The notes under the pieces are model-generated. The model searched no databases and was not told where the DNA came from. It worked only from the letters and a program-made list of their open reading frames with translations. This document shows, piece by piece, positions 2,721 through 22,889 of a stretch of DNA of 37,776 bases (within the stretch, counting starts at the first letter, position 1; each line of letters begins with the position of its first letter). Source of the stretch: Pseudomonadota bacterium (GTDB lineage Bacteria > Pseudomonadota > Alphaproteobacteria > Rhodospirillales > Magnetospirillaceae); contig JAKAFA010000002.1 of NCBI GenBank assembly GCA_021818185.1, forward strand, positions 1 to 37,776, written 5' to 3'. The translations under genes were made by a program, and so were the position numbers.

Positions 2721-4281
2721 TCACCTCTCCCTGAAGCTCTCATCGACATGCTGGATCACCGGGTCCAGCAGGTAGCTGATCACCCGGCGGCGGCCGGTCT
2801 TGATTTCGGCGGTGACCGCCATGCCGGGGGTCAGGGCCACGTCCTTGCCGTCGGCGCGGATGGTGGTGCGGTCGGGGTGGATGCGCACCGAATAGACCGG
2901 CCCGCCGGCCTCCGCCATCCGGCCGGCGGAATCGTGGCTGTCGCCATTCTCCGGCGGCGGGCGCCGGGTGGGGTCGCTGTCGGGGCCCTCGACGGCGTCG
3001 GAGGAGACCAGGGTCACCTCGCCCGGCACGGTGCCGTAGCGGGTGAAGGGGAAGGCCTCCACCTTGATCTCCACCTTCTGGCCGGGCAGCACGAAGCCGG
3101 CATCCTTGTTGGGCAGCGCCGCCTCGACGGCGATGCCCACGTCGTCGGGGACCACCATCAGCACCGGGGCCCCCAAAGTCACCACCGCGCCGGGGGCGTT
3201 GACCGCCAGTTGCTGCACCACGCCGTCCACCGGGGCGGTAAGGCGCAGCAGGCGGTCGCGGTCCCTGGCCTTGGCCAGGTCCTGGGCCAGCGAGGCGGCC
3301 TTCTGCTCGGCCTCGGCCAATTGGCCGAAGGCCTCGGCGCGGAACTGGCCGTCGGCCTGTTTCAGGCGCTCGGCGACGTTGTCCACCGCCGCCCGGGCTT
3401 CGGCCAGCTTGTGGGTGGCGCCTTCCAGTTCCTGGCGGCGATCCACCAGATCCTGCTGCACCTGCAGGTAATCCAGCTTGCTGCTCAGGCCCTTTTCCGC
3501 CAGGCCGCCGCGGATGCGGGCGCGTTCGGCCAGCAGCGGCACAGTGTCCTTGAGGCGGGCGATCTCCGCTCCGGCGGCCTGGACGTCGGCCCGTCTCTCG
3601 TCGCGCTCGCGTTCCAGGGCGCCGATGGTCGAACGGTAATCGGCCAGCTTGTGGGCCAGTTCGGCCTGATGCACCGCCAGCAGGTCGGGCGGCGCCGACA
3701 CTCCCCGCGGCAATTCCAGCCGGTCGCTGCCCCGCAGCAGGGCGCGCAGCCGCGAAGCGGTGACCACCTGTTCCAGCCGCTCCCGCGCCAGCCGGGCGGT
3801 GTCGGCCTCCGACCCGGTGCGATCCAGCTCGATCAGCACCTGGCCGGCCGTCACCCGGTCGCCGTCCTTGACGTGGATGGCCGCCACCGTGCCGGATTCG
3901 GGCGCGGCCACCGGCTTGGTCTTGCCGGCCGGGATGATGCGCCCCTGGGCGGTGGCGTGGATATCCACCCGGCCGAGGCTGGCCCACAGCAGCGCGGCGG
4001 TGAACAGGGCGACGATGGCCGCCCCGGTGGTGCGGCCCAGCGGCGAGGCGGGCGTCTCGGTGATTTCGATCACCGCCGGCAGGAAGGCCAGTTCGTCGGC
4101 ATTGCGCCCGGCCAGCCTGGGGCGTAGGCGGTCGAGCTGCCAGGCCGCCTGCCACACCGCGGCGTGCCGGCGCAACGGTTCCAGGCGCATCAGGGCCTCG
4201 TCGTGCCAGCCCTCGGGCAGTCGGGCGCCGACCCAGTCCGTGGCCGCGCGAAGGCGGGTTTCAAGCGCGGCGCGGACACGG

Positions 4282-4295
<14 letters not shown>
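2721..4295 (-). CDS. Type I secretion membrane fusion protein (HlyD family)
   Basis: A 524-residue periplasmic adaptor linking the inner-membrane ABC exporter to an outer-membrane TolC-type channel. A cytoplasmic N-terminus of ~90 residues leads to one membrane helix (IVALFTAALLWASLG, ~93-107). A biotinyl-lipoyl-like half follows (ESGTVAAIHVKDGDRVTAGQ), then a long Ala/Arg/Glu-rich coiled-coil hairpin, the second lipoyl half (TAPVDGVVQQLAV), and the typical C-terminal HlyD region ending VISYLLDPVIQHVDESFRER. I chose ATG 4295 rather than the track start because AGGAGG precedes it by 6 nt. That start overlaps the ABC gene's stop by 14 nt, indicating translational coupling. No tolC homologue is in the window, so the outer-membrane partner must be elsewhere. 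Confidence 0.92.
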
Positions 4296-6429
<2,134 letters not shown>

Positions 6430-6892: not shown

Positions 6893-7247
6893 GACCGCCG
6901 AGGCGGTGAACCGCGCCGCGGAGCGCGGTAGCGGGCAATTTCCGAATGCACTTCAACCCCAGCCGCGACAGCCTCAGGGCGCGGGCGGCGGCGCTGTCTT
7001 CGCCGATCAATCCTCGGTCGCGGCAATCGACCCCCAGCGTTCGAGACGGAGATTGGGGTGCGGCCGCCCCGGCGGCCGGCGACGACAGACCGTGACAGAG
7101 GGCCGTCGCATCCGCCCTCGATCCGGCCGGCTTGCTCGGTCCGGGGGCGGTGCGGTTCATGCCCGGGCACGTGCGAAGCTATGACGGTTGGGCTGGCCGT
7201 CGCTCGCCACGAATCCCCGCCCAATCATGGTGGCGCGGAAACTCACT
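6893..7247. other. 355-nt stretch without a convincing gene
   Basis: This lies between two converging genes, the lipoprotein and the last cas-type gene. I see GC-rich hairpins just after the lipoprotein stop, for example ACCGCGC-cgcgga-GCGCGGT, which could end transcription although no T-run follows. ORFs in all frames here are short shadows without recognisable motifs. I looked for CRISPR repeats and for remains of cas4, cas1 or cas2, which often lie beyond cas3 in this subtype, and found none. Confidence 0.5.
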
Positions 7248-8255
7248 TCATCCCGCGGGGCGCGCCCTGGTGAAATTCATGAATTTTCCAACCGAAATCC
7301 GCCTCGCCACCAAGAGGTGATCGACGCCCAAATGGGTGAGGCCGCCGGCCTTGTGCAGATCGGGATGGGCAAGCAAAGCGCGGATAGCGGATAGCGTCGC
7401 CGGGTGGCTCCAGATGGGCCATGCGAAGGAAAAGCCGTCTTGGCCGAAGGAACCGCCGACGATCGCGGGGCGCACCCTGCCGGCCCGCGTTTCCGGAACC
7501 AGCGGGATCGCAGCGAGGCCAACGGCGGCCAGACGATTGGCCCCGTGCTGGGTGCCACCCTTGTAGGCGGGATCGGTGGGATCACCGGCCAGGAGGGCGT
7601 AGCGCACATCCTCTTCCGGATCCCAGCGGAAGGAAAAGGTCGGGTCCCGGCGGTGCCACGGCATGAACAGGGCCTCGGCGAGGCAATCGGCGGCGGAAAG
7701 GGTAACGGCCGCCTTGCCCCTTCCGCGCGGCGGCGGGGCGGGGTCGGCGGGAACCTTCGCCAGTCTCTCCAGGAAATGCTGGTGACCCTGGCCAAACAGA
7801 AGGCACAGCGGCGTCGGATCAATGGGGGAGTTGCCGGGATGCCGGTCCTCCTTAACGGCGGCATCGCTCATCAGGGCGGCCAGCAGGTCCGCTCGCCCGC
7901 GTGCCGAGATTGTCGCGTTGCCAGCGACCTCCTCGAGCAGTCGAAGTGCCTCGTCGCGCGCGTAGTTGAGATCCTTCCGGGTCCACTGCCCCAAATCATG
8001 GTCGGCGGCAAGGACGGAAAGGCCGGCAGCGGCGGCCTCGGCGACCTCTTCCCTGGTGACCGAAACGGCAAGACACAGCAGCGGACGCAACGGTGGAGTA
8101 TCGAGGTCCCAGGCGGCTCGGGGATGACGCTTGCCGCCCTCCGGCCGATCACGGTCGGCGGCCTCCAGCGCCCTCAACACGCCGAGCAGGGCCAGGAAGG
8201 CGAGCAGATTGTCCGGTTCCAGCCCGTCGAGCCGGTGGCGGGTCGCGGCGGTCAT
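7248..8255 (-). CDS. Type I-G CRISPR-associated protein, probable Cas3-extension family
   Basis: A 335-residue protein beginning MTAATRHRLDGLEPDNLLAFLALLGVLRALE. The LEPDNLLAFLALLG-type opening followed by acidic and aromatic segments resembles proteins encoded just after cas3 in type I-G (formerly I-U) loci, annotated as the Cas3-extension family. A short Cas8-like large subunit is the alternative. I chose ATG 8255 because it overlaps the cas3 stop as ATGA, a tight coupling, while the longer ORF start lies inside cas3. Other visible features are a basic proline-rich linker (DPAPPPRGRGKA) and a His/Trp-rich patch (FMPWHRRDPTFSFRWDP). No catalytic motif is evident. It is the last gene before a gene-poor stretch, so its C-terminus could be altered by the deletion that removed the rest of the locus. 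Confidence 0.6.
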   Translation of the reverse strand: MTAATRHRLDGLEPDNLLAFLALLGVLRALEAADRDRPEGGKRHPRAAWDLDTPPLRPLLCLAVSVTREEVAEAAAAGLSVLAADHDLGQWTRKDLNYARDEALRLLEEVAGNATISARGRADLLAALMSDAAVKEDRHPGNSPIDPTPLCLLFGQGHQHFLERLAKVPADPAPPPRGRGKAAVTLSAADCLAEALFMPWHRRDPTFSFRWDPEEDVRYALLAGDPTDPAYKGGTQHGANRLAAVGLAAIPLVPETRAGRVRPAIVGGSFGQDGFSFAWPIWSHPATLSAIRALLAHPDLHKAGGLTHLGVDHLLVARRISVGKFMNFTRARPAG

Positions 8256-11233
8256 GCGGAGGCTCCATCCTCGGCCAGGCGAAGGGCTGCCTCCTCCGAA
8301 GCCCGGTGGTCGGCCAGGCGCAGGATGGCCTCCAGGCGGGCCAGTTCCCAAACGCCGTAGCGGGCCTTGAGGCATTCGTAAAGCGCGGGCCAGTCGAGGC
8401 CGTCGCGATCATAGGCCAGGGACTGGGGCCCGGCTCCGGGCGGCAGCGTTGACAACGGCAGGCCGAGTATCCCGGGCAGACCGGTGCGCGCCTCTCGGTC
8501 CTCGGGATCGGCATGGGGAAAGAAGGGACGCCCATGGCCGTGGTGGGTTCCCACCAGCCACAGCACCAGATCGGCATCTTTCGCTTCGGCGAAACGGGGG
8601 ATCAGGGGGGCCAACCGAACGGATAGTGCCTCGTGCCGCCAGTGGTCGGGCAACCGGGTGCGCGCCCTGGCCTCGCGGGGGAGCGGCCGGGCCGACTTGG
8701 CGAGGACATGGGCGGGGTCGGTGCCGAGCGGGTCACCAAAGGCCAGCCACCCCTGAAACCGTGGATCGGCCTTGCCGATGTCGTGGCAATACCCCGCCAC
8801 TTTCAGGTCAAGGACACGCTCCTCCGCCAGGCCGGCCCGCCGCGCGAACGCTTCCGCTACCGCTTCCACCTCCCGGGCGTGCCGGTCGAGCGGCAGGGCA
8901 TAGCCCGGCAGCGATCCGGCCATGTCATCCTCGGTGGCGGCGCCATGCCCATCTTCAGCGTCGCCGCCCCCTTTCAAGCCCGACCGCGCGACGAACACGA
9001 CCCCCCGCGGGCGCCCGTCCTCGTCGACGCCGTAGAGATCCGTGCGCGCCTCCACACTGCGGCGGCCTTTCCTGGCGTGATCCAGGCACCCGAGGGCCTC
9101 CCGGATGGAATCGGGCAGGGGGAGCGCGGCCACGGCATCGCGCAGATCCCGCCAGTGCCGGGTTTCGGCCCCGACGATGGCCTGGGCGAGCGCCTGGCTG
9201 CCACCGTCGTCGTCACCGGTCAGCAATCCCGGCGCCACCCGCACCGCGAAATGGCGCCCGACGAAAGGCCGAGCGGCCTTATCGGCCACATCGGCGGCCG
9301 GATCGCGGCGATCGGGGGTCCAGCCGAATTCGTCCACCCCGCCATAGGCCGCCGGAACCACCACCGCGTCGCCGGGACGAATATCCCCAGGCCGGATCCA
9401 GGCGGAGCGGTCATCGTCGCCGGCCCAGCGGAACACCGGCCTCGCTTCCGGCCGCCGCCGCGACAGCGTCGCTTCTTCGGGACCGGCGGCGGGAATGTCG
9501 GCCAGGAGGCCGGCGGTCCCGTCAGCGTCTTCAAGCCAGCGGCGCACCGCCCACACCGGCAGGTCGATGGCCTCGGCGGCCCGCGGCGGCACCAGCAGGA
9601 GAAGGCGGCGCATGCCTTCCTTCGGAACAGCGGTGTCCACGTCCGCCCGCCAGATGACGGACACCGCATCCGCGGCGCGGTCGGGGCCATGGAGATAGAG
9701 CGCCACCTCGGGATCGGCCGCGGGAACGGGCGAGGTCTGGGACAACAGGTCGAGATGGGCGGGCAACAGCACGGGGGCGTCCGGCTTGGGGGAAAGAGCG
9801 TCCTCCGGCACCGACCGCTTCGCGAAGGCGGCCAAGCCGAAATCGACGACGGCATCGGCACCTTTGCGGGGCGGGCCATCGGCGGTGCCGGTCAGATACG
9901 TCCATGCCTCTCCGGCGGCTGTGCCGTAGACCGGATCCTTGGCGTCGGCCTTGCCGCCGACGATGGCGGCGTGGGGGGTGATGTTCCGACCGGCGCGGTT
10001 GAGCCGCCCGAAGCGCTGGCGCAGGGCATCGACGGGGGCGGCGTCGGTAACGAGTCCGTCCAGGTCGATGTCCACTCCCGCCTCGACGCATTGGGTGGCG
10101 ACGATCACCAGCGGCCGGTCCAGCTCGCGTCGGCAACCGGTGCGGATCGGCTTCAGCTTGCCGGCGAGGTCGTCGCGATCCACGGGCCGGGCCGGGCCGA
10201 TCATCAGCAGCCGATCGGCGGCCTCGGCATCGAGGTGCCGGCCAAGCTCCTCAAACACCGTCCGTGCCCGCCCCACGCGGTTGACCACCACGCCGAGGGC
10301 GGAGTTCTTGTCCATGGCCATCAACGCCCGCAGCGTTTCGCCGACGATCACTTTGACTCGTCGCCGCTCTTCGGCCTGATCCGCTGCCTCGTTCCCGTCA
10401 TCGGCCTCGGCGGTCCGCATGCCGCCGAGATCGACCAGCCGGGCCGGCTTGGGGCTGTGCCAACGGGTGGCGAGAACGGGATCGGCGTAGTCCTCCGGCT
10501 CCAGGCCGACGCGGCCGCCCGCCCTGTCTCCCGGCGTGGCGGTCAACAGCGACACCCCCCAGGGGGCGGCGGCATCCGTGCATTGGCGCCAGTCGTTCTC
10601 CCGGTAGCGCCTTACCCAATGAAGCGTCTGGCGGAACGGTTCGGAGAGATGCGCCTCGTCCAGCAGGATCAGGCAGTCGGCACCGACCAGACCGGCATGA
10701 ACCGGCTTCATGCGGTCGGACACGCCGTAGCCCCGGAACAGCAGGCGCGAGCCCACCTGATCCACGGTCGAGCACAGGATGGTGGGCTGGGACGGCGTGC
10801 GGGCCCAGTCGTCCTCCCGCGGAATGCCGCCGCGCAGGCGGCGGGCGACCAGCGGCGGGGCGTCCGGCCCGGCCAGCAACCACAGGCGGTCCGCCACCCT
10901 CCCGATGACGGAATGGCCCGGATCGGCAAGGGCGTTGACGATCCTCTCCGCCCGCGCGAAGGCATCGTCCACCACCAGCCGGCGGTCCACCACCAGGGCG
11001 ATCCGCACCGGCGCCCGTCGCGCCGCTCCGCGATCGGCGTCCAGGGCGAGAGTGAATACGGCCACGTCCAACGCCGCCGTCTTGCCGAAGCCGGTGGGCA
11101 GGTCCAGCACCGCGGGCCAGGTGCCGTCCTCGGCCACCAGCCGGGCGAGCCGCGTCTGCCAGGGGAACGGCGGATGCCCATGGATCGCCTGGAAGAAGGC
11201 GGGGAAATCATCGGCCGTCAGGTCAGGGGACAT
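8252..11233 (-). CDS. cas3: Type I-G CRISPR-associated helicase-nuclease Cas3 (HD domain at C-terminus)
   Basis: A 993-residue protein that in an active system is recruited by Cascade to unwind and cut target DNA. The helicase comes first: Walker A DLPTGFGKT (~44-52), LILLDEAHL (~193), motif III LLTATPG, and motif VI QRFGRLNRAGR (~404). The HD nuclease is at the C-terminus (GYCHDIGKADPRFQGWL, ~816), followed by further metal-ligand-type His (DHWRHEALS, GTHHGHGRPFF). Helicase-then-HD order is the hallmark of type I-G/I-U Cas3, opposite to most type I systems. ATG 11233 has GGAGGG 5 nt upstream and overlaps the csb2 stop by 11 nt. All motifs I can check are intact, yet Cascade genes other than a csb2 stub are missing, so interference from this locus alone is impossible. 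Confidence 0.9.
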   Translation of the reverse strand: MSPDLTADDFPAFFQAIHGHPPFPWQTRLARLVAEDGTWPAVLDLPTGFGKTAALDVAVFTLALDADRGAARRAPVRIALVVDRRLVVDDAFARAERIVNALADPGHSVIGRVADRLWLLAGPDAPPLVARRLRGGIPREDDWARTPSQPTILCSTVDQVGSRLLFRGYGVSDRMKPVHAGLVGADCLILLDEAHLSEPFRQTLHWVRRYRENDWRQCTDAAAPWGVSLLTATPGDRAGGRVGLEPEDYADPVLATRWHSPKPARLVDLGGMRTAEADDGNEAADQAEERRRVKVIVGETLRALMAMDKNSALGVVVNRVGRARTVFEELGRHLDAEAADRLLMIGPARPVDRDDLAGKLKPIRTGCRRELDRPLVIVATQCVEAGVDIDLDGLVTDAAPVDALRQRFGRLNRAGRNITPHAAIVGGKADAKDPVYGTAAGEAWTYLTGTADGPPRKGADAVVDFGLAAFAKRSVPEDALSPKPDAPVLLPAHLDLLSQTSPVPAADPEVALYLHGPDRAADAVSVIWRADVDTAVPKEGMRRLLLLVPPRAAEAIDLPVWAVRRWLEDADGTAGLLADIPAAGPEEATLSRRRPEARPVFRWAGDDDRSAWIRPGDIRPGDAVVVPAAYGGVDEFGWTPDRRDPAADVADKAARPFVGRHFAVRVAPGLLTGDDDGGSQALAQAIVGAETRHWRDLRDAVAALPLPDSIREALGCLDHARKGRRSVEARTDLYGVDEDGRPRGVVFVARSGLKGGGDAEDGHGAATEDDMAGSLPGYALPLDRHAREVEAVAEAFARRAGLAEERVLDLKVAGYCHDIGKADPRFQGWLAFGDPLGTDPAHVLAKSARPLPREARARTRLPDHWRHEALSVRLAPLIPRFAEAKDADLVLWLVGTHHGHGRPFFPHADPEDREARTGLPGILGLPLSTLPPGAGPQSLAYDRDGLDWPALYECLKARYGVWELARLEAILRLADHRASEEAALRLAEDGASA

Positions 11234-11868
11234 GCGGGCCCTCCGCATCGACGGGGCGGCACAACCCCAGGCCGACGAACCGGCCGGCGCCCAGGATCAT
11301 CGGGCCATCCACCCGCTCGGAAAAGCGGATCACCGCATGCGTGAGCGTCCGGCTGGCGAGCGAGGTCGGCAGCCGCCAGCGCATCCAGTCGGGTGACCGG
11401 CCGGCCGGCTCTGCCGAGACCGCGCCTTCCACGGCGGAATGCTTGTCGGGAACCACGACTTGCGGGTCCGGCAGGCCGATGTTGCGGCAGGCGGCGGCGA
11501 TCTGCGCGGCGATTTCCGTCTGCCGTGCCGGCCCGTCCTGCTTCAGATGGCGATCCAGCACGATGGGGGTGACGGAGGCGAAGGTGGACGAGGTTGCGGT
11601 GTACAGGGCCGGATCGAGGGAAACCTTGGCCGGCTCCAGGGTGGGGGACAGGGTCAGCCCGAAGCGGTGGAGGCGCAACACCCGGCGTCCGGTTCCGCCG
11701 TCCATCGGAGCGATGGCGCGCAGGGCGGCACGGAAGCCGGGATCATCCATCAGCCCATCGGCGGACGGCGCCAGGGCAAAGCCCAGAATCCGGCCATCGG
11801 CATGGGGGAAGCCGGCGAAGGCCAGCGGCACGATGGCAAGGTGAGGCGCCCGCGTCGGGCGGCCATCT
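11223..11868 (-). pseudogene. csb2: csb2 (type I-G Cas5/Cas6-like), 5' end missing
   Basis: The reading frame carries the C-terminal part of a Csb2/GSU0054-type protein. It begins near DGRPTRAPHLAIVPLAFAG, continues through HADGRILGFALA, and ends with the Gly-rich RAMP-type loop GAGRFVGLGLCRP. Csb2 fuses Cas5 and Cas6 roles (crRNA processing and Cascade assembly) and is normally about twice this long. The track ORF starts at a GTG (11831), but recognisable homology continues upstream in frame to about 11868. Beyond that the DNA becomes the repeat-protein fragment read on the other strand. There is no sensible start codon or ribosome site at the break. I therefore call it truncated by recombination. 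It is coupled to cas3 by an 11-nt overlap. Confidence 0.75.
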
Positions 11869-12510
11869 GACCACCACCGGCAGCAGCGACACGGTGACGA
11901 TGAGCAGCGGCACGGTGACGCTGGGCAACGCCAGCACGGTGACGGTCGCGGGCACCGGCGACAGCATCATCGGCGGCAGCGGTGACGTGCTGACGCTGAG
12001 CGGCAGCAGCGACACCGCCACCCTCAGCAATGGTGCCGTCGGGCTTGCCAACGGCAGTCAGGTGACGGTGACGGCCAACAGCCTCACAGTCAGCGCGTCT
12101 GGCCTAGTGGTGAACGGAAGCAACGACGGCCTGCAGCTTTCAAGCGGGACGGTCAGCCTTGCCGGCAGCCTGTCCGAGGCGGTAACCGGCAATTCCGACG
12201 TGATTTCCGGCGGTACCGGCGACGTGCTGAGCTTGAGCGGCAGTGGTGATACGGTGACCTTCAGCTCCGGCACGGTGACGCTAGCCAATGCCAGCGTCGC
12301 CGTGGTGAGCGGCATTGGCGACGTGATCAGCGGTGGGGCGGGCGACAGCCTCAGCTTGAGCGGCAGCACTGCGACGGTCACCTTGAGCAGCGGCACGATC
12401 AGCCTGATTGCAGCCGGTGTGACAACGACGCTCGCCGGCAACGGCGACAGCATTTCCGCGCTGGGCAGTGACACGGCGACGGTGAGCGGGTCGTCGGATG
12501 TGATCACCGT
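11866..12510 (+). pseudogene. Fragment of a 41-residue tandem-repeat surface or secreted protein
   Basis: In the frame of the 11594-12622 track ORF, about 215 residues form imperfect repeats of ~41 residues. An example is LSLSGSGDTVTFSSGTVT followed by LANASV, GIGDVISGGAGDS, then LSLSGS again. Repeats rich in Gly, Ser, Asp, Thr and Val with alternating strand patterns are typical of very large adhesins or type I secretion substrates. Both ends are abrupt: upstream it runs directly into csb2 DNA, and downstream (12504-12525) it switches frame into an FkbM-type methyltransferase. There is no start, ribosome site or stop of its own. It is therefore an internal piece of a larger gene. The DNA-level repeat unit is ~123 bp, which would favour recombination or mis-assembly. 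Confidence 0.7.
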
Positions 12511-12518
12511 CAGCGGCA

Positions 12519-14405
12519 GTGGCGGCCAACCGCCTAGCGGATGTGATCGAGGTCGTCGGTGCGGCGGCCGGGGAGGCTGCCGGACGGGGCGACCTCAAGC
12601 CCCAGAGCACCATGGGCCATAGCGTCACCCGCAGCGACGATGGGGCAATCCCCATGGTCACGGTCGACGGCCTGCTGGCTGACCGGCCGGCCCTAAGGGG
12701 GCAGCGGGTCATCGTCAAGATCGATGTCGAAGGCAACGAGACCGAGGTCATCCGGGGCATGGCAGATCTGCTGGGCTCCGGCTGGGTCGCTGCCGTCATC
12801 TGGGAGCGCGGCCGCGAGTACGACCATCCCGAAGGCCAGGAGCGGCTGCGTCTCCTGCGCGCCTACTTCGCTTCCCTGGGGTTCACCGCGTGGTATTTCG
12901 AGTCCGAGGACGCGGCGGGCCCGCTGCTCCCGTTCACGGACACCGGCCGGATTTGCAATGTCTTCGAGCTTGCCCCCGGCATCTCTCCGCATGCCAGTTA
13001 CGGCCTGCCCCGGCCGCAACCCATGGCCCAGCCGGCCAGCCCGATATTGGATGCCGTCTTCGAGGCGCGGCGCGGGTTCCAGCTCGGCATCCAGGCGCAG
13101 TCGGCCGGCAAGGTCGAGGACGCACTGGCGTATTTCGCGCAGGCCGCCGCTGCCGATGCCACGCTCAGCGATCTCTACAACAGCCTCGGCGTGATGCTGT
13201 TCGGGCTTGGCCGCCATGCCGCCGCCACCGCCTGCTGTCACCGAGCCGCCGCGATGGCGCCGGGAGACTTCACCGTGTGGTGCAATCTCGGCAACGTGCT
13301 GCGGCAGCAGGGCAAGTTCGAGCGATCCGAGGAGTGCCATGCGCGGGCGCTCGCCCTGGCACCCGATCATCCCAGCGTGGTCTACAATTTCGGCCTGCTG
13401 AAACGGGATCAGGGAAAGCCGGAAGAAGCCCTGACCGCCTTCGAACGGGCGCTGGTGCTGAAACCGGATCACAGCGCCTGCCGGTGGGACCATGCGCTCG
13501 CCCTGTTGCAGAAGGGGGATTACGGGCAAGGGTTTCCCGCCTACGAAGCGCGCTGGGCCTTGACCCGTGGTACGCCCCGCAAGGTGTCGCTGCCGCGCTG
13601 GGACGGCACCTCGCTGGAGGGCCGCTCGATATTCCTGCAGGACGAACAGGGCTTCGGCGACATCCTGCAGTTTGCCCGCTTTATTCCCGAGGTGAGGCGC
13701 CGCGGTGCAACCAGGGTGGTGCTGGAGTGCCGCCCCGAACTGATGCGCCTGATGGCGATGGCCCCTGGGATCGATACCGTGGTGCCGCGTGACGGCTCCG
13801 CGCCAAACTGCGACGTCTACGCACCGCTGCTCAGTCTTCCGGGGCTTCTCGGCACCACTCGGGAGACCCTTCCGGCCGACGTGCCCTATCTGGTCGCCCC
13901 CGCTCCGGCCCACGCGTTGCCGGATGATGGCCGCCTCAAGCTAGGCCTGGTTTGGGCCGGCAAGGCGACGCCTACCGATCGCTCCTGTCCCCTGGAGCTG
14001 CTGCTGCCACGGCTGGGCGACCCCCGGTATGCCGTATTCAGCCTGCAGACCGGCCCGCGCGCCGACGACTTGAAGGCGCTTGGCGGGGATGCCTTCATCA
14101 CCGATCTCGGCCCCCTGCTGGAGGATTTCGCCGAGACGGCTGCCATCCTCGCTCAGCTGGACCTGCTGATCACCGTCGATACCGCTGCCGCCCACCTTGC
14201 CGGTGCGCTGGGCGTACCGACCTACCTCCTGTTGCACCATGTTTCCGACTGGCGCTGGCCGGGTTTCGGGAAATCCTCTCCCTGGTATCCGAGCATGACG
14301 CTGTTCCGACAGCATCGGCCCAAATGCTGGGATGGCGCCCTCGATGATTTGGCCGCCGCCTTGGGCGGCTTTATGCCCCGAGACGAGCTTCGCCGCGCAT
14401 TCTGA
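12519..14405 (+). CDS. 5'-truncated FkbM methyltransferase - TPR - glycosyltransferase-like protein
   Basis: The ORF encodes up to 628 residues in three parts. Residues ~1-150 match the C-terminal half of an FkbM-family methyltransferase (VIVKIDVEGNETEVIRGM). The SAM-binding GxNxG-type motif that should precede it is absent. Residues ~180-340 form about four TPRs (YNSLGVMLFGLGRH, WCNLGNVLRQQGKF, VYNFGLLKRDQGKP). Residues ~350-620 resemble glycosyltransferase-9/O-GlcNAc-transferase-like domains found behind TPRs (FLQDEQGFGDILQFARF, LITVDTAAAHLAGALG). The GTG start has no ribosome site, and upstream DNA is repeat-protein sequence in a different frame. The gene has therefore lost its 5' end and may be silent. 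The parent probably modified cell-surface glycan or flagellin, which is inference. Confidence 0.75.
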   Translation: MAANRLADVIEVVGAAAGEAAGRGDLKPQSTMGHSVTRSDDGAIPMVTVDGLLADRPALRGQRVIVKIDVEGNETEVIRGMADLLGSGWVAAVIWERGREYDHPEGQERLRLLRAYFASLGFTAWYFESEDAAGPLLPFTDTGRICNVFELAPGISPHASYGLPRPQPMAQPASPILDAVFEARRGFQLGIQAQSAGKVEDALAYFAQAAAADATLSDLYNSLGVMLFGLGRHAAATACCHRAAAMAPGDFTVWCNLGNVLRQQGKFERSEECHARALALAPDHPSVVYNFGLLKRDQGKPEEALTAFERALVLKPDHSACRWDHALALLQKGDYGQGFPAYEARWALTRGTPRKVSLPRWDGTSLEGRSIFLQDEQGFGDILQFARFIPEVRRRGATRVVLECRPELMRLMAMAPGIDTVVPRDGSAPNCDVYAPLLSLPGLLGTTRETLPADVPYLVAPAPAHALPDDGRLKLGLVWAGKATPTDRSCPLELLLPRLGDPRYAVFSLQTGPRADDLKALGGDAFITDLGPLLEDFAETAAILAQLDLLITVDTAAAHLAGALGVPTYLLLHHVSDWRWPGFGKSSPWYPSMTLFRQHRPKCWDGALDDLAAALGGFMPRDELRRAF

Positions 14406-14620
14406 ACGTCTGGGGATCAGCGAACGGCTGGGACGCCGCCCCACTTGGGTGCCTGCCGGAAAAGACTGGATTTCCCCTCCGAAGAGAGCGTTGCTGGTGG
14501 GTGACGGCGTGCCGGACTTCCTCCTGGCCTGCCGCCCGCCCCGACCGGGAGACCGGCGGGGCTCCCGGTGGTGGCAGCGCCGCGGCGGTTCGCGGCGCCA
14601 CGAAACGGGAGGCCCTCACC

Positions 14621-15211
14621 ATGTCGCACGGAAAAATCACGGAAGCCATCGCGCCGGCCACCGAGCATACCCCATGTCCTCCCGGGGCGGTGGAGCCGCC
14701 CGAGGGATCGGGCGGTGCCATCGCCGTTATCCCGCCGACCATTGCGATCAAGAGCCGGCGGAAGCCCCGGACCAAGGCCGTCACATCGGAGGGCGCGGTT
14801 GATGGCGTGGCGGCGTCGGAACCATCCGCCGCCCAGAAGATCGACGAACCGAAGCCGCTTCCCAGCGGCGAGGAGATCGCCGCCGCCTGCCGGACCCTGC
14901 TGCTCGACTATCTTGCCGGTGCTGCCGGCCTGTCCCCCGGGGAGGCCGAGGCTGCCGCCGACCGTGCCGTCCGGGCGCTGGCGCCGCCTCCATCTGCCGC
15001 CGGCCGTGACGATACCAAGCTGGCCCGCCTGATCGTCTTGCTGCGCCGCCGGGAAGGCGCGACGCTCGCCGAGATGGTCGAGGCCACCGGCTGGCAGACC
15101 CATTCGGTGCGCGGGTGCTTGAGCGGCACCCTCAAGAAGAAGATGGACCTCGCGGTGGCCAGCGAGATGGCCGAGGGCCGCCGCATCTACCGCCTGCCGG
15201 CGGAGGGCTGA
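14621..15211 (+). CDS. DUF3489 domain protein of a recombinase module
   Basis: A 196-residue protein. The N-terminal ~110 residues are Ala/Pro/Lys-rich and probably disordered. The C-terminal part, KLARLIVLLRRREGATLAEM, followed by WQTHSVRGCLSGTLKKK and EGRRIYRLP, is a DUF3489 domain. Its predicted winged-helix look suggests DNA binding. I chose the ATG with GGGAGG 8 nt upstream rather than the longer track ORF. It is the first gene of a three-gene set with the DUF2924 protein (3 nt downstream) and a serine recombinase. That set recurs together in alphaproteobacterial genomic islands. A role as accessory or directionality factor for the recombinase is inference only. Confidence 0.8.
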   Translation: MSHGKITEAIAPATEHTPCPPGAVEPPEGSGGAIAVIPPTIAIKSRRKPRTKAVTSEGAVDGVAASEPSAAQKIDEPKPLPSGEEIAAACRTLLLDYLAGAAGLSPGEAEAAADRAVRALAPPPSAAGRDDTKLARLIVLLRRREGATLAEMVEATGWQTHSVRGCLSGTLKKKMDLAVASEMAEGRRIYRLPAEG

Positions 15212-15214
15212 GCC

Positions 15215-15685
15215 ATGCGCCGCGGCCAGGTCGATCGGACGGCACTCGCCGCCGAGCTGGCAGGCCTCCCCCATCTCGCTGATGCAGACCTCCGGAGCCG
15301 CTGGAGGGATCTGTTCGGCCACCCGCCGCCCCGGCTCGGCAGGGGTCTGCTGGCGGCTGCGGTTGCCTACCGCCTGCAGGAGAAGGCCCTGGGTGGGCTC
15401 AAGCCGTCGGTGCGCCGGATGTTGGCCCAAGCGGCCGGACATGCCGCTGCCGGCCGACCGGTGGCACCGCCGCCGCCCATCGCCAAGGCCGGCACCTGTC
15501 TGATCCGGCAATGGCATGGTGAGGTGCACGAGGTGGCGGTGTTGGACGACGGCGCGCTGTATCGGGGTGAGCGCTACCGCTCACTGTCGCAGGTGGCGCG
15601 CGCCATCACCGGGGTGCGTTGGTCGGGACCGCGCTTTTTCGGCCTCCAGGGCAAGGAGGCTGCCGATGCCGCCGACCAAGCCTAA
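15215..15685 (+). CDS. DUF2924 domain protein of a recombinase module
   Basis: A 156-residue basic protein. The first half (LRSRWRDLFGHPPPRLGRGLLAAAVAYRLQ) is the DUF2924 signature region. The second half (GTCLIRQWHGEVHEVAVLDDG and YRSLSQVARAITGVRWSGPRFFGL) resembles the small DNA-binding modules that accompany recombinases. It starts 3 nt after the DUF3489 stop, and its last 20 nt overlap the recombinase start, so all three genes are probably co-translated. The biochemical function of the family is not established. Association with recombination is inferred from conserved neighbourhood. Confidence 0.85.
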   Translation: MRRGQVDRTALAAELAGLPHLADADLRSRWRDLFGHPPPRLGRGLLAAAVAYRLQEKALGGLKPSVRRMLAQAAGHAAAGRPVAPPPPIAKAGTCLIRQWHGEVHEVAVLDDGALYRGERYRSLSQVARAITGVRWSGPRFFGLQGKEAADAADQA

Positions 15686-17342
15686 CCCCAAACGGTGCGC
15701 CGTCTACACCCGCAAGTCTTCCGAGGAAGGACTGGAGCAGGACTTCAACTCGCTCCATGCCCAGCGCGAATCCTGCGAAGCCTTCATCAGGAGCCAGAAG
15801 GCGGAGGGCTGGCGGCTGGTGGAGGCCGCCTACGACGACGGCGGCTTCTCGGGCGGGACCATGGACCGCCCCGCCCTGCAGCGCCTCCTGGCCGACATCA
15901 AGGCCCGGCGCATCGACGTGGTGGTGGTCTACAAGATCGACCGCCTGACCCGCGCTTTGGCCGACTTTGCCAAGATGGTCGAGGTGTTCGACGCCCATTC
16001 CGTCTCCTTCGTGGCGGTGACCCAGCAGTTCAACACCACCACCTCGATGGGCCGGCTCACCCTCAACATCCTGCTGTCCTTCGCCCAGTTCGAGCGCGAG
16101 GTCACCGCCGAGCGCATTCGCGACAAGATCGCCGCCTCGAAGAGGAAGGGAATGTGGATGGGGGGCGTGGTGCCCTTGGGCTACGACGTCGAGGACCGCC
16201 GGCTGGTGGTCAATACGGCCGAGGCCGCGACGGTGCGCACCATCTTCCGCCGCTACCTCGACCTCGGCTGCGTGCGGCGGCTGGCCGAGAATCTGGAGCG
16301 GGATGGTATCCGCTCCAAGCGGCACACCGGCAAGCGATGTGGCGGCACCGTCCTCGGCCGCGGCGCGCTCTACACCCTGCTCGCCAATCCCCTCTATGTC
16401 GGCGAGGTGCGCTACTGCAAGGCCACCTATCCCGGCCTGCACGAGGCGATCATCGAGCGGGAGCAATGGGACGAGGTGCAGCGGATGCTGGCCGGCAACG
16501 GCGTCACCCGCGCCATGCGCCCTACCAGGGTCGCCCCCAGCCCGTTGGCCGGCAAGCTCTACGATGGCAACGGTGAGCGCCTGACCCCCAGCCACACGGT
16601 CAAGGCTGCGCGGCGCTACCGCTACTACGTATCCCATCCGCTCATCACCGGCACCGTCGATCAGGCTCCCGAGCGATGGCGGTTGCCGGCGCAGGAGGTG
16701 GAAAACGCCGTCGGCGAAGCCTTGTCCGGCATCCTCGCCGACCGCGCGGGCCTGGCCACAGCGATGCGCGCCGCCGGCTTGGCGCTGGAGAAGCTATCGG
16801 CGGTGTTCGCCGCGGCCGCCGCTTGGCGCAAGAGGGTGGAAGCCGGCACCGAAGCCCCTGCGGCGGTGGCGGCCATCGTCGAGCGGGTCGAGGTGCGGGA
16901 CGATGGGCTGCTGCTGACGGTGTCGCTGGCGGCGCTCTTGCAGCCGGAGGCGATCGTCACCGATGTCGAGGCGCTCACCATCACCCGCGCCATCCCCATG
17001 CAGCTGAAGCGGCGCGGCTGCGAGATGCGTCTCGTGGTCGATGGCGCCGGCCCATTGCCCAAGGTCGATCCCGCCCTGATCAAGGCCCTCGCCCGAGCGA
17101 GGGCGTGGTTTGACGAACTGGCCAGCGGCGCGATGCCGTCGCTGGCCGCCATCGCCCGGCGCGAGGGCATCACCGACCGCTACATCGGCCAGCTCCTGCC
17201 GCTGGCTTTCCTCGCCCCCGACCTTGTCGCGGCGATCGTCGCCGGCACCCAGCCGGTCGGCCTCACCGCCGAAACCCTCATCCGGCACATCGACCTGCCG
17301 GCCGATTGGGGCGAGCAGCGCCGCGCCCTCGGGTTCGGCTGA
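15666..17342 (+). CDS. Large serine recombinase (resolvase/invertase family)
   Basis: A 558-residue site-specific recombinase. The N-terminal resolvase domain has CAVYTRKSSEEGLEQDFNSL, which contains the catalytic Ser region, followed by VVVYKIDRLTRALADF and an ERIRDKIAASKRKG linker. A Recombinase domain follows (MGGVVPLGYDVEDR, TLLANPLYVGEVRY), then a variable C-terminus with a likely second DNA-binding part. The Cys-rich zinc ribbon common in large serine integrases is not obvious. I chose ATG 15666, which has AAGGAGG 6 nt upstream; the track ORF's first 50 residues are a shadow of the DUF2924 gene. The gene ends ~250 nt from tRNA-Ser. It probably mobilised this island, but I cannot identify att sites. 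Confidence 0.92.
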   Translation: MPPTKPNPKRCAVYTRKSSEEGLEQDFNSLHAQRESCEAFIRSQKAEGWRLVEAAYDDGGFSGGTMDRPALQRLLADIKARRIDVVVVYKIDRLTRALADFAKMVEVFDAHSVSFVAVTQQFNTTTSMGRLTLNILLSFAQFEREVTAERIRDKIAASKRKGMWMGGVVPLGYDVEDRRLVVNTAEAATVRTIFRRYLDLGCVRRLAENLERDGIRSKRHTGKRCGGTVLGRGALYTLLANPLYVGEVRYCKATYPGLHEAIIEREQWDEVQRMLAGNGVTRAMRPTRVAPSPLAGKLYDGNGERLTPSHTVKAARRYRYYVSHPLITGTVDQAPERWRLPAQEVENAVGEALSGILADRAGLATAMRAAGLALEKLSAVFAAAAAWRKRVEAGTEAPAAVAAIVERVEVRDDGLLLTVSLAALLQPEAIVTDVEALTITRAIPMQLKRRGCEMRLVVDGAGPLPKVDPALIKALARARAWFDELASGAMPSLAAIARREGITDRYIGQLLPLAFLAPDLVAAIVAGTQPVGLTAETLIRHIDLPADWGEQRRALGFG

Positions 17343-17590
17343 TTTCCCATCTTTCGGCGGGCCTCTTTCCGCCACTCCGCACGGGGGCAAGCGCGTCGTG
17401 TTGCCAGCGTGCGCGTTCGGGTATTCGGTCGACCCGAAGCGGCAAAGTGGCAAACGGAGAAAACGGGAGCGGGCAGCGCCGATGGGGGAGGGATCGCGCC
17501 GGTCTCCCCTTCGGGTGAGCCCGCAGACATGGCCGGACGGCCGCCCTTGCGGCCGCTTACACAGATGATCTGCGCGCTACCGCAAAAGAA

Positions 17591-17683
17591 TGGCGGAGGG
17601 GGAGGGATTCGAACCCTCGGTAGGGGTTTACCCCCTACGACGGTTTAGCAAACCGTTGGTTTAAGCCACTCACCCACCCCTCC
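17591..17683 (-). tRNA. tRNA-Ser (anticodon GCU)
   Basis: The minus strand folds as a class II tRNA. The acceptor arms are GGAGGGG and CCCCTCC with an encoded CCA. The D-arm begins GGTGAGTGGC. The anticodon stem-loop ACGGT-TTGCTAA-ACCGT has anticodon GCT. A long variable arm (TAGGGGG with CCCCCTA) and T-arm GAGGG-TTCGAAT-CCCTC complete it. It decodes AGC/AGU. Lying beside a recombinase gene, it may mark an island boundary, although I found no duplicate of its 3' end in the window. Confidence 0.95.
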
Positions 17684-22178: not shown

Positions 22179-22760
22179 ATGACCGACACCACGCCATCCG
22201 AACCCAGCGCCCCCGAGAATTCCGGCCGCCGCGACTTCCTGCTTTACACCACCGTTGCCACCGCCGCCGTGGGCGCCGCCCTGGCCCTGTGGCCGTTCAT
22301 CGATTTCATGAATCCCTCGGCCGACGTGCTGGCCCTGTCGACCACCGACGTGGACCTGGCGCCCATCCAGGTCGGGCAGCGGGTCACGGTGAAGTGGCGC
22401 GGCCGTCCGGTCTTCATCGCCCGGCGCACCGAAAAGGAGATCGCCGAGGCCCGCCAGGTGAATGTCGCATCGTTGCGCGACCCGCAAACCGATGCCGACC
22501 GGGTGGTGGACCCCCAATGGCTGATCGTCGTCGGGGTCTGCACCCATCTGGGCTGCATCCCGCTGGGCGAGAAACCGTCCGACCCGCGCGGTCCCTATGG
22601 CGGCTGGTTCTGCCCGTGCCACGGCTCGATCTACGACACCTCGGCCCGCATCCGCCAAGGCCCGGCCCCCAAGAACCTCTACGTACCCCATTACGCCTTC
22701 ATCGCCCCGCACGCTGTGCAGATCGGCGCCCCCGGCGGCCCTAAGGCCGCTTCCGTTTAA
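22179..22760 (+). CDS. petA: Ubiquinol-cytochrome c reductase Rieske iron-sulfur subunit
   Basis: A 193-residue Rieske protein that moves electrons from ubiquinol to cytochrome c1 in complex III. The N-terminus has a Tat-type motif (GRRDFLLY) followed by one membrane helix ([18 protein letters not shown]). The [2Fe-2S] ligand boxes CTHLGC and CPCHGS are intact, with the Pro-loop region [10 protein letters not shown]. The length is normal for alphaproteobacterial PetA. Unusually, petB and petC do not follow; the next genes are pstCAB. The 3' end carries an 18-bp direct repeat (see separate entry). It may be the sole Rieske with unlinked cytochrome genes, or a second copy. Confidence 0.92.
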
Positions 22761-22788
22761 AGCGACGGCTCTAAGGCCGCTTCCGTTT
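22741..22788 (+). repeat. 18-bp direct repeat at the petA stop codon
   Basis: CTAAGGCCGCTTCCGTTT occurs at 22741-22758 and again at 22771-22788, offset by exactly 30 nt. The first copy encodes the last residues of PetA and leads into TAA. The second, in the same frame, leads into TGA. The arrangement looks like a tandem duplication of the gene end. The spacer and second copy can form an imperfect hairpin (AAGCGACGGC with GCCGCTT) that might serve as a terminator. Confidence 0.7.
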
Positions 22789-22889
22789 GAGGCAGGACGC
22801 CCGCATTAAGGTTTCATGACCCGCCTCACCGCGCTGGCCGGCCGTTCCCATGTCTGGCGGCGTATGAAACGGGGCGGGGGCGGGCGTGG

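Follow-up and report, generated by a model that had tools for sequence, protein, structure and literature searches.

Type I-G CRISPR-Cas was formerly termed type I-U. The intact I-G operon of Prosthecomicrobium hirschii is ordered csb1-csb2-cas3-extension-cas4/1, and variants of this order were found in two further genomes, one with csb2-cas3-extension followed by a cas4-like start (G014) and the other with csb1-csb2-cas3 and the extension fused (G021). In the I-G system that has been studied, the Cas6 half of Csb2 alone still cleaves crRNA, and effector assembly fails when the Cas5-like half of Csb2 is missing (PMC9638904). Two other kinds of gene bear on the locus described here: (i) large adhesin-like proteins with a 41-aa repeat (123-bp unit), which are encoded on contig C187 of the assembly under study and at two places in a related genome (G070:C33 and G070:C217); and (ii) a TPR-GT9-FkbM-TPR-GT9 gene of 1,299 aa, which is divergent from hlyDB in the related genome G013 (contig C18). 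A literature search on TPR/FkbM/type I secretion adhesin clusters found nothing relevant.

Pieces of all three were found side by side in the window, by which we mean the whole stretch of DNA analysed (37,776 nucleotides). Contig C50, one of 362 contigs in a draft assembly that is 95% complete with 2.5% contamination, is covered by the window from end to end. The features that concern the argument are as follows.

2721 to 6429, minus strand: HlyD and HlyB type I secretion genes, the left syntenic flank (TIGR01843, TIGR01846)
7248 to 8375, minus strand: type I-G Cas3-extension/Cas8g gene, complete (NF049934 positions 1-298 of 299; PADLOC Cas8g)
8252 to 11248, minus strand: cas3g, complete (TIGR02621 positions 1-854 of 854)
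11223 to 11867, minus strand: csb2 remnant, C-terminal (Cas6-like) part only (TIGR02165 positions 288-492 of 492; alignment to intact Csb2)
11858 to 11870: junction 1, csb2/repeat (homology to csb2 runs out at 11867-11870, and that to the repeat sets in at 11858-11867)
11868 to 12517, plus strand: piece of a repeat protein with 41-aa (123-bp) units, lacking both the start and the C-terminus (repeat families; relatives on C187 and in G070, G013, G003, and G020)
12505 to 12520: junction 2, repeat/FkbM, with a frame change (FkbM homology from 12519 in all relatives aligned)
12519 to 14405, plus strand: TPR-FkbM-GT9 remnant, consisting of FkbM without its SAM motif, TPR, and GT9 (Pfam; alignment to the G013 orthologue)

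A truncated type I-G Cas operon

The minus strand carries, in order, the 3' part of csb2, cas3, and the third Cas gene, and the plus strand carries the 650-bp repeat piece followed by the TPR-FkbM-GT9 gene. The csb2 remnant, cas3, and the extension/Cas8g gene were in the same order as in P. hirschii and shared 56%, 57%, and 66% amino acid identity with their counterparts, whereas csb1, the N-terminal half of csb2, and cas4/cas1 of that operon were missing from the window. Homology to the intact P. hirschii Csb2 (L096) was found to start at window positions 11870-11865, and the profile search aligned only the C-terminal part of the family, in agreement with a preliminary description of this DNA in which csb2 stopped matching at about 11868. 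The cut lies near a domain boundary and leaves roughly the Cas6-like half, including the conserved histidine of the LTH motif. An AlphaFold model of the remnant (mean pLDDT 58) gave no meaningful structure match, and the remnant had no sequence relative in the PDB.

Of the components of a functional I-G system, Cas3g and the large subunit were present at full length, while a full-length Csb2 (Cas5-Cas6 fusion), the Csb1 (Cas7g) backbone, and the Cas4-Cas1 adaptation genes were not detected. The csb2 copy of the window was the single one in the assembly, in which csb1 (no PF09617 match at E-values up to 10), cas1, and csx17 were likewise absent. A scan of the window revealed no CRISPR array. 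An additional edge was located at about position 7245, the site where cas4/cas1 would be expected after the third Cas gene. Since among 55 genomes of the family only four had a csb2 match (three of them above the cut-off), and the Cas3 of the window was closer to that of P. hirschii than to that of G014 (48% identity), the I-G operon was likely acquired laterally, as judged from these sequence comparisons. In tetranucleotide composition, the Cas block correlated with the host at 0.83, compared with 0.854-0.919 for host segments of equal length; a contaminant contig was rejected on the basis of this value, slightly below the host range but close to it, and of the syntenic flanks.

With Cas7g and the Cas5-like half of Csb2 gone, the I-G effector would be unable to assemble, and by this reasoning it is very unlikely that the Cas remnant still works in interference. 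The trimmed operon could conceivably have been kept as a unit, in which a free-standing Cas6-like Csb2 half together with Cas3g and Cas8g would serve a role other than I-G interference. The position of the cut near a domain boundary and the intact state of the two downstream genes favor such retention, which we nevertheless regard as extremely improbable.

The repeat fragment and the FkbM remnant

Repeat coding was found to begin at about 11867 and to end at about 12517, giving a piece of about five units with spacings of 123, 237, and 123 bp; the period of about 123 bp described previously is thus correct and the repeat homology is real, although the end lies slightly beyond the 12510 first proposed. 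The fragment matched many places in the 2,467-aa repeat protein on C187 at 37-48% amino acid identity. Compared with that protein and those of G070, it has lost both its own start and the C-terminal end of the adhesin at the joints. An identical copy of the piece was not present in the assembly, where the best DNA match was 78% over 81 bp.

At junction 2, FkbM homology starts at a valine (position 12519) in a frame that differs from the repeat frame. The PF05050 match covers positions 48-171 only, and because positions 1-47 of the Pfam domain are missing, the glycine-rich SAM-binding motif of its N-terminal third (IDVGAHWG in the G013 orthologue) is absent from the window; the frame change into an FkbM domain without its SAM site, also described previously, was therefore confirmed. 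The remnant is open over 633 codons and is 60-63% identical to residues of about 650-1283 of the G013 orthologue. While the neighbors and orientation are the same in both genomes, the first 650 or so residues of the G013 gene are replaced in the window by the Cas fragment and the repeat piece. The sequence suggests that the FkbM piece is probably part of a pseudogene. Concerning the parent genes that the preliminary description proposed to look for, the related repeat protein on C187 was recovered, but an orthologue of the missing transferase half was not, as the assembly held only paralogues of at most 46% identity.

Gene order in related genomes

Four related genomes carry the closest relatives of the window HlyB and FkbM as divergent neighbors, at five loci in all (G013:C18, G069:C294, G070:C295, G070:C212, and G041:C236, the last on a contig that holds the FkbM start only). 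HlyB identity between the window and these loci was 72-78%, and the FkbM gene at G070:C212 was 46% identical. HlyB and the FkbM half are 1.3-2.7 kb apart at four of the loci (G041 excluded) and 6.1 kb apart in the window, where the Cas fragment and the repeat piece lie between them. This conserved adjacency indicates that the outer flanks of the window belong together. A repeat gene between HlyB and FkbM was detected at none of the five loci. A shorter transferase gene occurs naturally in G041 and at one G070 locus, which makes the extent of the deletion in the window uncertain.

In two relatives (G070:C70 and G020:C51), a repeat adhesin gene immediately precedes a TPR-GT9 gene on the same strand, just as the repeat piece precedes the FkbM remnant in the window. 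The middle piece need not, therefore, be of distant origin. Three genes are indeed joined, with two abrupt mid-coding joints within about 700 nt as initially reported and as substantiated here by truncated profile matches and alignments to relatives; however, to call the genes unrelated was too strong for junction 2.

Similar configurations were observed elsewhere in the family. In G013:C16 (L176, 8626-9754), a 203-aa repeat-protein end and a truncated GT9 piece meet in divergent orientation and form an independent joint, and in G070:C70 (L177, 8829-10663), a stop codon interrupts the repeat-protein gene directly upstream of the TPR-GT9 gene. Repeat genes of this kind seem to decay often, and repeat and TPR-GT9 genes meet and break repeatedly in the family.

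Other features of the contig were also recorded. At its left end (93-2724), genes for an NlpC/P60-domain protein and an RCC1-repeat protein adjoin HlyD; these proteins may be substrates of the type I secretion system. A possible small mobile module at 14501-17683 comprises a DUF3489 gene, another small gene, and one for a large serine recombinase, and it ends next to the 3' terminus of a tRNA-Ser gene. Integration at this tRNA-Ser (17591-17683) beside the recombinase was considered and rejected, as no repeat of at least 14 bp of the tRNA 3' end occurred elsewhere in the window. A 30-bp tandem pair (87% alike) was located at 22733-22792.

Origin of the two junctions

Three alternatives to deletion were considered for the origin of the joints. 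The contig may be an assembly chimera that joins loci which are apart in the real genome or separated by unassembled gaps, as the preliminary description had allowed. The fragmented and slightly contaminated draft is compatible with such an error, as are the mid-coding ends of all three genes and the fact that repeat genes are typical break points (C187 itself begins inside one). Against this, synteny of the outer flanks is seen in relatives, the rest of the assembly yielded none of the lost parts (csb2-N, csb1, cas1, and FkbM-N) and no identical copy of the repeat piece, and the joints share words of at most 17 bp with the own contigs compared, the 17-bp word being ordinary repeat coding. We thus consider mis-assembly unlikely. 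A second possibility, which we judge to be less probable still, is that a distant 650-bp adhesin fragment, perhaps together with the Cas fragment, was captured as filler DNA during repair of a break in the transferase gene. Such capture would account for a repeat piece with both ends inside coding sequence and for the lack of a repeat gene between HlyB and FkbM in relatives; however, the assembly holds no identical donor copy, and a local origin is simpler given that repeat genes reside beside TPR-GT9 genes in relatives.

The remaining alternative, also raised in the preliminary description, is recombination mediated by GGCAGC-type repeats, in which both edges were said to be rich. These words are frequent in the repeat piece (15 per 650 bp versus a mean of 1.6 per tile), but they are the Gly-Ser codons of the repeat and do not border the joints, with a single one (AGCGGC) on the csb2 side and none on the FkbM side. 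Moreover, just one pair of repeats (12495/12538, 22 bp, 77%) lies around a joint, and it does not coincide with that joint. There is accordingly hardly any likelihood left for this mechanism.

Our analysis instead suggests that the locus is probably a real chromosomal mosaic generated by deletions, an ordinary scar of genome decay and not a functional fused gene. This reading is supported by the two clean joints, the truncation of three genes, the absence of their partners, and the conserved outer flanks, while the draft state of the assembly and the lack of a local adhesin gene at the syntenic loci count against it. The relatives show HlyD-HlyB facing a TPR/FkbM/GT9 gene. A horizontally acquired I-G cas operon may have settled between hlyDB and the adhesin/transferase genes. 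Through one deletion, the operon would have lost csb1 and the Cas5 half of csb2, and the repeat-adhesin gene its 5' part; through another, the adhesin would have lost its 3' end and the transferase its 5' part, fusing the repeat fragment to the FkbM remnant; cas4/cas1 may have been lost on the other side of the operon. The joints could have formed by end joining, with a possible overlap of a few bases at most. Because the I-G effector would not assemble, and because the FkbM remnant has lost its SAM site and is read in another frame than the repeat, what remains of the locus is best read from its sequence as a non-functional relic.

The importance of these findings is mainly for annotation. 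The locus is an example of how the gene order of relatives can argue against mis-assembly without read data. Annotators should neither treat the open reading frames at the joints as a fused gene nor credit the genome with a working type I-G CRISPR system.
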